This document shows positions 10,397 through 49,654 of a stretch of 64,000 nt of DNA, one piece after another. Where the stretch lies: positions 1 through 64,000 of IMG/VR virus record IMGVR_UViG_3300027763_000043, one strand, 5' to 3'. Within the stretch, counting starts at the first letter, position 1, and the number at the start of each line of letters is the position of its first letter. Made by a program: the position numbers and the translations under genes. Source of the DNA: a virus. Under the pieces are notes generated by a model. It saw nothing but the letters and a program-made list of their open reading frames with translations. It was not told the origin of the DNA and searched no databases.

Positions 10397-10681
10397 TCAA
10401 TCAAACTCCATAATGTCTTCTGGTAGGTCTTGTGGGTTCTCTAAATCCACCTCGAATAGTAATGGGTGTGCCTCTTCATCTATCAAATAGAAAGAGTTTT
10501 TGAATAAATCTTCTGGTTCAAATGATCTTTGCTTATCTGCTAATCTACATAGGTCTTTATCATACAAATGACCATCCGGTAGTTCATCAAATGTAAAAGG
10601 AACTTGATTGATAAAGTACATCTTAACAATCATCGTACCTTTATTGTACCAGCAGTATGCTTGACTGATTTGATAAGACAT
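10397..10681 (-). CDS. Hypothetical acidic phage protein, 94 aa
   Basis: Begins MSYQISQAYCWYNKGTMIVK and has an acidic C-terminal half (EVDLENPQDLPEDIMEFD). It sits between the tRNA cluster and the giant fibre gene. A late-type box (AATAAATA, 10702-10709) lies 21 bases before its ATG, so it is probably expressed late. No family was recognised. Confidence 0.6.
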   Translation of the reverse strand: MSYQISQAYCWYNKGTMIVKMYFINQVPFTFDELPDGHLYDKDLCRLADKQRSFEPEDLFKNSFYLIDEEAHPLLFEVDLENPQDLPEDIMEFD

Positions 10682-10712: not shown

Positions 10713-10995
10713 TGCGAGTAGGGAGACTTGAACTCCCACGAGCAATGCCCAACAGATTTTCTTACCACTATAGTTTTCACTACCCTTTCGGTTTGTGGTC
10801 TGGACTATACCTTCACCATACCTTTAGGTTTAGGTGTTCCCCGTCTAGTCTCTACACCTTCAAGATTTCTCTTGCTTGGCTCGGTATTGCCATTTTACAG
10901 GTTTCACCGAATTTGAGGAATTACACTCATAAGGTTTCCCAAATGAGGCTCAATTTTCATAAGTCTGGTGTGTCTACCGATTCCACCATACTCGC
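10713..10995 (-). tRNA. tRNA-Leu(UAA) interrupted by a group I intron
   Basis: The 5' exon is 10961-10995 (acceptor GCGAGTA, D arm, ending at the anticodon with ACTT). The 3' exon is 10713-10760 (AAAATCTG, variable arm, T arm GTGGGAGTTCAAGTCTCCC, acceptor TACTCGC, discriminator A). The exons join to an 83-nt tRNA with loop CTTAAAA, anticodon UAA. The 5' and 3' acceptor strands are perfectly complementary. CCA is not encoded. The anticodon stem has one C.U opposition at its top. The intron sits after U34, the position known for cyanobacterial and plastid tRNA-Leu(UAA) introns. Confidence 0.9.
10761..10960 (-). other. Group I intron (about 200 nt) within tRNA-Leu
   Basis: The minus-strand intron begins ATGAAAATTGAGCC and ends GGTAAG, with a terminal G. 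Core elements match the cyanobacterial tRNA-Leu subgroup as I remember it: internal guide GAG pairing with exon CTT (U.G at the splice site), P-element AATTCGGTGAAACC, Q-like GGCAATACCGAGCCAAGC, R-like GAAGGTGTAGAGACTAGACG, S-like AAGGTATAGTCC. No ORF of useful size lies inside, so it would splice without an encoded maturase and has no own endonuclease. Confidence 0.88.
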
Positions 10996-11035
10996 TTGTG
11001 AGACCATTATAACTCAAAGAATCATAATGGTCAAG

Positions 11036-11108
11036 TGCTCCTTGTCGGGATCGAACCGACCTTAGCCGAATTATGAGTTCGGTGCTTTCGCCAGAGAGCT
11101 AAAGGAGC
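11036..11108 (-). tRNA. tRNA-Met(CAU)
   Basis: A 73-nt cloverleaf: acceptor GCTCCTT/AAGGAGC, D arm GCTC...AAGC, anticodon stem CCGAA/TTCGG with loop CTCATAA (anticodon CAU), T arm GTCGG/CCGAC with loop TTCGATC, discriminator A. The acceptor does not look like an initiator. A CAU anticodon could also be a tRNA-Ile read after lysidine modification, so Met is the default call. Confidence 0.88.
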
Positions 11109-11132
11109 ATTCGCTATTCGCAAACAGCGAAT
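11109..11132. other. Stem-loop between two tRNA genes
   Basis: ATTCGCT pairs with AGCGAAT around a 10-base loop, filling the spacer between tRNA-Ile and tRNA-Met. It is probably a processing element of the tRNA precursor. Confidence 0.5.
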
Positions 11133-11203
11133 GGGAATACTGGGAGTTGAACCCAGACTAAGCCCTTATAAGGAGCCCGCTCTAACCATTAAGCTATACT
11201 CCC
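11132..11203 (-). tRNA. tRNA-Ile(UAU)
   Basis: A 72-nt cloverleaf with acceptor GGGAGTA/TATTCCC (one G.U), D arm AGCTTAATGGTTAGAGC, anticodon loop CTTATAA (anticodon UAU), T loop TTCAACT with stem CTGGG/CCCAG, and discriminator A. It reads AUA codons directly, which are frequent in this AT-rich phage and rarer in higher-GC hosts. Confidence 0.85.
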
Positions 11204-11207
11204 ATAA

Positions 11208-47098: not shown

Positions 47099-48277
47099 TC
47101 AGAATCCATGAACACAAACATTTTTAGTAAATTCCGTCATTGGCATTCCAGTCATTCCAGAATGAATTGCTCGAAAATCTTGATAACAAAATACTCCAAT
47201 ATTTAAGAAATTATTTGTCCTATACTTACTTGCATAATTGTAGGCATAAGATAAAGATTCTTCAGAAAGTCTTGGATGAATATTCATAAAGTCTTTTGCT
47301 CTGGCATGAACATCTTGCCAGAAGATACTATCAAACTTTGAACCATAAGAATAATGAAATGCCAATGAAATTTGATAATCAAATAATTCTTGATAGTAAA
47401 GTTGATTTGCATATTCAAAACTTTCTAGCGTTCTATCTTCCAAAAACTTACAAATATGTTGAGCATATCTAACATAATAAAATAATGATAGTGCTTGCAA
47501 TGGTTCCAGGAACATCAGACGATTGCCATTATTTGCAGCATACTTATTTGCAATCATCTTCTTGGCATATTTTGGTGTCCAATCGATGGTTTTACAATCT
47601 TCTTTTCCAAGAAGTTTTTGTACTTCTTCTTTATTATGGAATTTCTTATTAAATAGATACCCACATTTAGTTAGATTTCTGTCTGGAAATGGAAGACCGA
47701 ATTGCCAACCATGCTCTGTGGCACGATGCAAAGTATATGTAGGATCATCTACTTCATTCTCAGTATAAAGAATGGCACTATTCACAGTTTCAAAAAGTGG
47801 TTTCACATAATCATTATCATTAGACCATCCACTACAAGAAATGATGAAATCGTATTCGTGTCCATTGATATAAACCTTATCGTTTTCAATACGATATTCT
47901 GAAATTTTCTTTGGATGATACTTAACACCAACTTCTTCTAGTTTTTGATGAATGAATCCATTAAAGATTGAACTTTCAAACTGAAAAGCATCTGAGTTAT
48001 TGTTGAAATGATGCCTAAAATAATCAGATTTACCATAACCCCAATTAATAAATTTAATTCCATTTTTAAAAGAGACAATACCATTATCTCTTAGATCACC
48101 AATACAAATATCTAAAATACTTGTAAGTAATTCACCAATATGAGGTGTTGTAGATTCTCCAACATTCAGTGCTGGTTTATCTGGATCATAATGAATTTCA
48201 ACTTGGTGACCATTTTGAATGCAAACTAATGCACTAATAATGGCACTTGTTCCTTTTCCAATAATTGCAATTTTCAT
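47099..48277 (-). CDS. Flavin-dependent halogenase (tryptophan halogenase-like), 392 aa
   Basis: Residues 1-15 form the FAD motif (AIIGKGTSAI, a GxGxxA variant). VGESTTPHIGELL (39-51) and FKNGIKFINWGYG (70-82) follow; K71 aligns by eye with catalytic Lys79 of PrnA. GWQFGLP (190-196) replaces the WxWxIP signature. FLEPLQ (256-261) aligns with PrnA FLEPLE, so the residue at the place of Glu346 is Gln. A marine cyanophage relative, VirX1, is a proven halogenase preferring iodide; whether this one is active is open. It overlaps the 66-aa gene by 4 bases. Confidence 0.82.
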   Translation of the reverse strand: MKIAIIGKGTSAIISALVCIQNGHQVEIHYDPDKPALNVGESTTPHIGELLTSILDICIGDLRDNGIVSFKNGIKFINWGYGKSDYFRHHFNNNSDAFQFESSIFNGFIHQKLEEVGVKYHPKKISEYRIENDKVYINGHEYDFIISCSGWSNDNDYVKPLFETVNSAILYTENEVDDPTYTLHRATEHGWQFGLPFPDRNLTKCGYLFNKKFHNKEEVQKLLGKEDCKTIDWTPKYAKKMIANKYAANNGNRLMFLEPLQALSLFYYVRYAQHICKFLEDRTLESFEYANQLYYQELFDYQISLAFHYSYGSKFDSIFWQDVHARAKDFMNIHPRLSEESLSYAYNYASKYRTNNFLNIGVFCYQDFRAIHSGMTGMPMTEFTKNVCVHGF

Positions 48278-48491: not shown

Positions 48492-49061
48492 TTAATTTCC
48501 TCGGTCATAAGCATATTGGACACAATGACCATTTCTTCTTACATAATGAAAGAATACTTGATGATAATAACTATCTTTATTTCCTTTCATCGGTTCCCTC
48601 CAATGTGGAAGAATACATCCCTTATAGAGTGCTCCATCTCCTGGTTTCATAGTACATGAAAGAGGTGGTTCTCCATCAGGGCGCTCAAACATAATTGGCC
48701 ACTCATAATCTAAATTTTGACTTATATTTACAGTAATACTGATCTCACAAGAAGGTCTATCAGTATGCTTTGTAAGTTCATGACCTTTAAAATAAAATCG
48801 ATCATAATAATAGGTGGGATACAATCGTTCACCAATCGTATCCTCAATCACTTGCATAATTTCATAGTGTGCTTCTTTGAATTTGGGATGATTATATCGT
48901 GCCAAACTACCAGAAACTTGTGCCTCATTTGGTTCTACAGAAACTCTTCCAGGACCATCATAACGATACATTCCTCTTTCCCAAGGAACATCCTCATAAA
49001 GTTGAGATGCATCAATGAGATTTGGCATCTCAATTACAGACCATTCTACTTTATTACTCAT
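48492..49061 (-). CDS. 2OG-Fe(II) oxygenase, 189 aa
   Basis: Probable iron-binding HxD in FKGHELTKHTDRPSCEISIT and distal His in KGCILPHWREPMKGN or YYHQVFFHYVRR. KPGDGALYKG matches the usual PGDxxLYxG turn of the fold. The ATG at 49061 has AGGTGG upstream; a GTG two codons earlier is the alternative. It is close to cyanophage prolyl-hydroxylase-like proteins in pattern. Its start overlaps the PKHD-type gene. Confidence 0.8.
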   Translation of the reverse strand: MSNKVEWSVIEMPNLIDASQLYEDVPWERGMYRYDGPGRVSVEPNEAQVSGSLARYNHPKFKEAHYEIMQVIEDTIGERLYPTYYYDRFYFKGHELTKHTDRPSCEISITVNISQNLDYEWPIMFERPDGEPPLSCTMKPGDGALYKGCILPHWREPMKGNKDSYYHQVFFHYVRRNGHCVQYAYDRGN

Positions 49062-49654
49062 TTCCACCTAGGACCTACCACCCAACCAATTAGTGATTTG
49101 CGATGACCAGAAATAACTTTCTTCACACGATGTTGAGTTCTACTATCAAATACGATTACAGTTCCTCTGGTCTTTGGAACAAAGTAGGATCTTCCATCAC
49201 CATTCATCAACTGAACTTCACCACCCTCATAATCATCAGGGTCTGAAAGTTGTAGAATAAATGAGAGTTTTCGAATTTGTTCAGAATTCGTAATTACAAA
49301 ATTTTCTTGTTTATTTTCTGTGGGTTTGTAAGAAACTTCAATACTTGCATCATTGTGCCAACCATAATATTCACCTTTCTCATAAGAAGTATATTGCATT
49401 GCTTCCCCATCAAACCCAGTAACATCATACAAAAAGTTTTCACGATTTGCACGAAGAACATAATGATAACAAAGTCCTGTTGCCCAATGACTTGAGGGCA
49501 ACCAGGAAGTTCTACTATCCCTTTTATCTAAGGTAAGTCCACCAAATGTTGTCGCCTGTTGGAAATTACCATCGAGTTGATTTAAATCTTTTTCAATCAA
49601 CTCAACAATTTCTTTTGGCATTATAGTGGAATACCAAACTGATGTACCTGCCAT
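49058..49654 (-). CDS. 2OG-Fe(II) oxygenase, PKHD-type hydroxylase, 198 aa
   Basis: YYGWHNDASIEV supplies H-x-D, STRTQHRVKKV-like (FDSRTQHRVKKVISG) the distal His, and RKSLIGWVVGP the 2-oxoglutarate Arg. KLSFILQLSDPDDYEGGEVQ is the hallmark of PKHD-type hydroxylases. It is the first gene of the halogenase operon; a consensus promoter lies 25 bases upstream. Confidence 0.88.
   Translation of the reverse strand: MAGTSVWYSTIMPKEIVELIEKDLNQLDGNFQQATTFGGLTLDKRDSRTSWLPSSHWATGLCYHYVLRANRENFLYDVTGFDGEAMQYTSYEKGEYYGWHNDASIEVSYKPTENKQENFVITNSEQIRKLSFILQLSDPDDYEGGEVQLMNGDGRSYFVPKTRGTVIVFDSRTQHRVKKVISGHRKSLIGWVVGPRWK

Follow-up and report, generated by a model that had tools for sequence, protein, structure and literature searches.

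A split tRNA-Leu(UAA) gene in a T4-like cyanophage

The window, the 64,000-nt stretch of DNA analysed here, is the first part of a 92,973-bp virus record (IMGVR_UViG_3300027763_000043). Its minus strand carries a tRNA-Leu(UAA) gene that is split by an insert and lies between a tRNA-Met(CAU) gene and a small conserved ORF. The features of the locus are as follows.

11131-11204, minus strand: tRNA-Ile(UAU)
11035-11108, minus strand: tRNA-Met(CAU)
10995-10713, minus strand: whole split tRNA-Leu(UAA) gene
10961-10995, minus strand: tRNA-Leu(UAA) 5' exon, 35 nt, GCGAGTATGGTGGAATCGGTAGACACACCAGACTT, ending ...GACTT with U34 as last base; the joined exons are called as tRNA-Leu(taa)
10761-10960, minus strand: group I intron, 200 nt, tRNA (IC3-like) type by similarity, ORF-less, inserted at U34/A35; identified by RF00028 and covariation
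10949-10951, minus strand: internal guide GAG, forming P1 with exon CTT, with a U34.G wobble at the splice site; invariant in a 31-sequence alignment
10915-10920, minus strand: 5' strand of P3, TTCCTC, with partner GGGGAA at 10842-10837; 100% of cells paired, 5 of 6 pairs changing on both sides
10846-10850, minus strand: 5' strand of P7, the guanosine-binding helix, GACTA, with partner TAGTC at 10807-10803; 100% of cells paired, 1 pair changing on both sides
10713-10760, minus strand: tRNA-Leu(UAA) 3' exon, 48 nt, AAAATCTG...CTCGCA
10397-10681, minus strand: ORFA, a 94-aa ORF of unknown function, conserved marker of the locus

An earlier note on this DNA had proposed that the two exons form a complete tRNA-Leu(UAA) once a 200-nt insert after U34 is removed. 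ARAGORN bore this out, calling the joined 83-nt exons, a class II tRNA, as tRNA-Leu(taa), and the exon/intron borders could be placed exactly to the base at 10961/10960 and 10761/10760. The 3' exon contains a long variable arm (GGGC-ATT-GCTC) and does not encode CCA. The anticodon stem has a C27.U43 mismatch which is also present in the intronless tRNA of phage S-TIM5. For the unspliced window gene, ARAGORN called no tRNA in intron-free mode; with introns allowed, it put the junction 2 nt away from its true place and called a tRNA-Tyr.

PHROG matches in the window included gp5-, gp53/54- and gp32-like T4 proteins, PhoH, ThyX, a 2OG oxygenase and a tryptophan halogenase. The gp32 was 77% identical to that of S-SRM01, with P-SSM2 and S-SKS1 also close. 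Beyond the window, the same phage carries a psbA gene (Pfam Photo_RC, E 1.4e-86) that is itself interrupted by two group I introns (90.3 and 87.5 bits; G000:C1 91586-92121, L001/L002), followed by a 187-aa Endonuclease_7-family gene (L002 751-1314). Judged by its T4-like structural genes, the gp32 relationship and the psbA context, the source virus is a T4-like cyanophage. The tryptophan-halogenase-like and 2OG-Fe(II) oxygenase genes (window 47099-48277 and 49058-49654) are probable auxiliary metabolic genes. The window has a GC content of 36%, and in 25 of its ORFs TTA accounts for 30% of the leucine codons, so that a supply of tRNA-Leu(UAA) by the phage, as suggested earlier, is plausible on codon usage.

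Structure of the intron

A search of the whole window with the Rfam group I intron model RF00028, the check suggested in the earlier note, matched positions 10970-10779 at 63.4 bits (E 9.7e-14; gathering cut-off 50 bits). The guide triplet GAG facing exon CTT and the terminal G were found as predicted, at 10951-10949 and 10761, respectively; both the G at 10951 opposite U34 and the terminal G are conserved in relatives. A structure written by hand on the query, comprising P2, P3, P4, P5, P6, P6a, P7, P8, P9 and two P9 hairpins, was scored on 31 phage introns. Within this P2-P9 structure, 98.5% of cells were paired, compared with 30-42% when the partner strands were slid by 1-3 columns as a control. 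Both sides changed in 25 of 51 pairs, a count that none of 500 shuffles reached (mean over shuffles 12.9), and covariation was seen in P2, P3, P6a, P8 and P9, including all 4 pairs of the final hairpin. The core segments described earlier are intact in the window copy, with stems kept by compensatory change: P3-P8, P4-P6, the P7 helix and covariation are all present, and the U34/A35 insertion places the intron in the tRNA-Leu(UAA) anticodon-loop family. By sequence and covariation, the insert is a well-formed group I intron, and its similarity to cyanobacterial and proteobacterial tRNA introns points to an IC3-like subclass.

Distribution and lateral movement among phages

An IMG/VR pattern search using the tRNA-Leu exon and P1 returned 108 stretches. 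Intronless tRNAs with TTGAGCC in the variable arm (L005, L007, L008 and others) were false pattern matches and were excluded, and five viral contigs with GCCCGAG exons matched a chromosomal tRNA-Leu of Achromobacter and were counted as flanking host or prophage DNA rather than as phage genes. With both kinds set aside, 73 intron-bearing phage tRNA genes remained (about 70 IMG/VR contigs). Unannotated introns at the same tRNA-Leu(UAA) site were also found in Agrobacterium phage Atu_ph07 and in the huge phages LR756501 and LR756511. In the cultured phage Atu_ph07 (MF403008.1; L112, about 1400-1740), the unannotated tRNA-Leu(UAA) holds a 278-nt group I intron, and the record has a 'hypothetical protein' over part of the gene. 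In the 595-kb phage LR756511.1 (L114, 3001-3734), the tRNA-Leu(UAA) intron is 700 nt long and has a 154-aa HNH gene inside it.

Closer to the window, S-TIM5 and S-TIM54 have the same gene order of tRNA-Ile(UAU), tRNA-Met(CAU) and tRNA-Leu(UAA), with the intron absent; the S-TIM54 tRNA is 95% identical to the window exons. At the S-SRM01 locus, tRNA-Ile is followed by an HNH gene, then by tRNA-Met and a tRNA(UAA) that has neither the intron nor the long variable arm, and finally by ORFA. This arm is absent in 41 of 168 distinct UAA tRNAs (T4-like cyanophages; L355-L434, L435-L514), whose best matches are mostly phage tRNA-Leu(UAG) and (CAA) genes with the same oddity. The same intron also splits class-I-like tRNA(UAA) genes (L448, L450, L471, L488, L494).

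Pairs of loci with discordant introns and exons were informative. The 83-nt exons of L454, which lacks the intron, match those of L040, which has it, at every base. The introns of L040 and L450 are 98% identical, yet the first splits a class II tRNA-Leu and the second a class-I-like tRNA(UAA), with bodies that are only 61% alike. We also fetched 80 loci by the downstream ORFA alone, which yielded 17 intron-plus and 55 intron-minus tRNA(UAA) genes. The junction GACTT/AAAATC was present in 17/17 intron-plus and 27/55 intron-minus genes (p 9e-5), and in 12/12 and 20/38 after dereplication (p 0.002). Because the contigs are related, neither these counts nor the HNH gene counts given below are independent. 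These comparisons provide good evidence that the intron moves laterally between phage tRNA(UAA) genes, and the earlier suggestion that phages act as a vehicle for its spread is supported and extended, both by exons that match exactly whether or not the intron is present and by near-identical introns in dissimilar tRNA bodies.

Alternatively, the intron could be an immobile ancestral feature of the phage tRNA that has been lost many times, with homing playing no part. In its favour, intron-minus alleles are common and the window has no endonuclease gene; against it, the near-identical introns of tRNA bodies that are only 61% identical, and the matching exons of interrupted and uninterrupted genes, require either movement or very precise loss. 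We regard immobility as improbable, if the least improbable of the alternatives.

An HNH endonuclease gene at the tRNA locus

In a subset of relatives, a gene for a free-standing 154-aa HNH protein (Pfam HNH, PF01844, E 3e-6) lies near the cyanophage tRNA-Leu, between the tRNA and ORFA. It is 49% identical to the HNH protein encoded inside the LR756511 intron. The gene was found downstream of the tRNA at 19 of 65 intron-plus loci and at none of 102 intron-minus loci defined by the exact uninterrupted sequence GGTAGACACACCAGACTTAAAATCTG (p 2.5e-9), with a gap of 45-70 nt between tRNA and HNH gene at most of the 19. In the ORFA-anchored sample the enrichment was weak (7/17 intron-plus versus 8/55 intron-minus, p 0.036; 5/12 versus 7/38 when dereplicated, p 0.13). 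At the window locus the HNH gene is absent, a search downstream of the tRNA found no remnant of it, and no endonuclease gene adjoins the intron-bearing gene as one would in a collaborative homing pair. A 19-codon HNH gene remnant lies downstream of the tRNA at L066, and L058, L073 and L040 have other ORFs of restriction-endonuclease-like size in the HNH position, none with a Pfam match. A second small HNH family, HNH2, occurs beside intron-plus and intron-minus genes alike.

A search from the HNH side gave 80 loci, 17 by an intron-bearing tRNA-Leu and 57 by an uninterrupted tRNA(UAA) whose body was nearly always divergent, so that the HNH gene goes with the tRNA(UAA) locus. The 57 uninterrupted cases led us to reject the proposal that the gene is confined to intron-bearing loci, and persistence of the gene therefore needs no intron. 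We likewise rejected the idea that the core site GACTTAAAATC and the HNH gene are mutually exclusive, since L469 and L491 contain both. The anticodon loop CTTAAAA was constant in 57/57 HNH-linked UAA tRNAs, with varying stems.

We hypothesize from these associations that the HNH gene may cooperate with the intron in collaborative homing. It is conceivable, and only somewhat short of an even chance, that the tRNA(UAA) locus is a homing hot spot at which the HNH family attacks the canonical tRNA-Leu(UAA); phages carrying the HNH gene would be immune because their own tRNA is either interrupted by the mobile intron or divergent, often with a class-I-like body. If true, this would be collaborative homing aimed at a tRNA, with LR756511, in which the endonuclease gene sits inside the intron, as an intermediate.

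Origin of the intron

In a tree of 70 introns, the cyanobacterial tRNA-Leu introns formed their own clade (100/100) with the phage introns outside, and cyanobacterial tRNA-fMet introns joined that clade at 97/87. The window intron grouped with phage introns in a 19-row clade (87/93) that lies apart from the cyanobacterial one, and is not a member of the cyanobacterial tRNA-Leu intron lineage. A sister placement of the phage and cyanobacterial tRNA-Leu introns was not rejected (AU p 0.26). End to end, the window intron is about 68-69% identical to the compared cyanobacterial tRNA-Leu introns, and its closest cellular blastn matches, at 77-79% over about 120-150 nt, were cyanobacterial tRNA-fMet, cyanobacterial tRNA-Leu and proteobacterial tRNA-Leu introns. 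The window exons are 95% identical to an intronless cyanophage tRNA-Leu and 75% identical to a cyanobacterial tRNA-Leu.

The earlier note had likened the intron to the ancient cyanobacterial and plastid tRNA-Leu intron and suggested acquisition from a cyanobacterial host. The shared insertion site stands; an origin within the cyanobacterial lineage is not supported, since the 100/100 clade leaves the phage introns outside. If the phage had recently taken over an intron-bearing tRNA-Leu from its host, with the intron persisting as a vertically kept relic, this would suit the cyanophage context and the shared site, and an older sister relationship would be compatible with the AU result; the separate cyanobacterial clade, the 68-69% intron identity and exons far closer to phage than to cyanobacterial tRNA-Leu all speak against it, and we give such a capture little credence. 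On the tree and the AU result together, such a recent transfer is improbable for the cyanobacterial tRNA-Leu genes that were sampled.

Proposed mechanism

We think it very probable that the window holds a T4-like cyanophage tRNA-Leu(UAA) gene interrupted by an IC3-like group I ribozyme, that this gene is spliced, and that its intron belongs to a lineage circulating among phage tRNA(UAA) genes, with likely HNH homing in some relatives. By analogy with group I biochemistry, exon CUU would pair with the internal GAG to form P1, an exogenous G would dock in P7 and attack after U34, and the freed 5' exon would then attack after the terminal G to give a class II tRNA-Leu(UAA). The spliced tRNA would decode UUA-rich phage messages. 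Spread of the lineage among phage tRNA(UAA) genes would probably proceed by homologous repair after cutting of intronless alleles and, by analogy with cyanophage psbA, the free-standing HNH homing endonuclease just downstream of the tRNA is the likely agent in some relatives. The window copy, having no HNH gene, would need the endonuclease of another genome or ordinary recombination. That the window intron is instead a decayed, non-splicing remnant in a dead tRNA gene is very hard to reconcile with its intact core segments, stems kept by compensatory change and intact exons.

Comparison with known systems

Phage introns observed by 2014 were all in protein-coding genes (PMC3984707). Later papers on phage introns and huge-phage tRNAs do not, in the passages located, describe tRNA introns (PMC11878797, PMC12363816, PMC7162821, PMC7886860, PMC11835236), and we found no published phage tRNA intron in the openly licensed literature, although an earlier report is possible. 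Within that literature, the intron is thus a known kind in a host, the phage tRNA, from which we found no report of it. The tRNA-Leu intron is widespread in phages and has been missed by standard tRNA annotation, as illustrated by the 'hypothetical protein' of Atu_ph07 and by ARAGORN, which misses or mis-splits such genes. Its wide phage spread, missed annotation and signs of lateral movement therefore make it a candidate route for the spread of tRNA introns between bacteria, and the mobility of a tRNA intron becomes testable in phage crosses.

The cyanobacterial tRNA-Leu(UAA) intron shares with the phage intron its host tRNA, the U34/A35 site, the CUU/GAG P1, core architecture, size class and absence of an ORF. 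The window intron differs in being phage-borne, of a separate lineage and flanked by phage-type exons, and the 3' ends are GGTAAG/GGTACG in phage introns versus AGAATG/AGGATG in cyanobacterial ones. The tRNA-Leu(UAA) introns of beta- and gammaproteobacteria gave a best blastn match of 79% over 127 nt to the phage intron, and the Azonexus tRNA-Ile(CAU) intron (Azoarcus-type) also matched; in the tree, proteobacterial tRNA-Leu and tRNA-Ile(CAU) introns share a side with the phage introns (86/78), but are chromosomal, only 66-73% identical end to end, and have GC-rich peripheral helices.

Among phage systems, the T4 td/nrdB/nrdD, Twort and Bastille introns are likewise phage-borne, are self-splicing and are often endonuclease-linked, but reside in protein-coding genes rather than in a tRNA (PMC3984707). 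Collaborative homing has been described for the S-PM2 psbA intron with F-CphI (PMC6083498), an arrangement that the psbA and Endonuclease_7 genes of the source phage resemble. Like the tRNA-Leu locus of relatives, the S-PM2 system combines a group I intron with an adjacent free-standing endonuclease gene in T4-like cyanophages; there the target is a protein gene and the enzyme an Endo VII, whereas here the target is a tRNA and the endonuclease a predicted HNH enzyme (PF01844).
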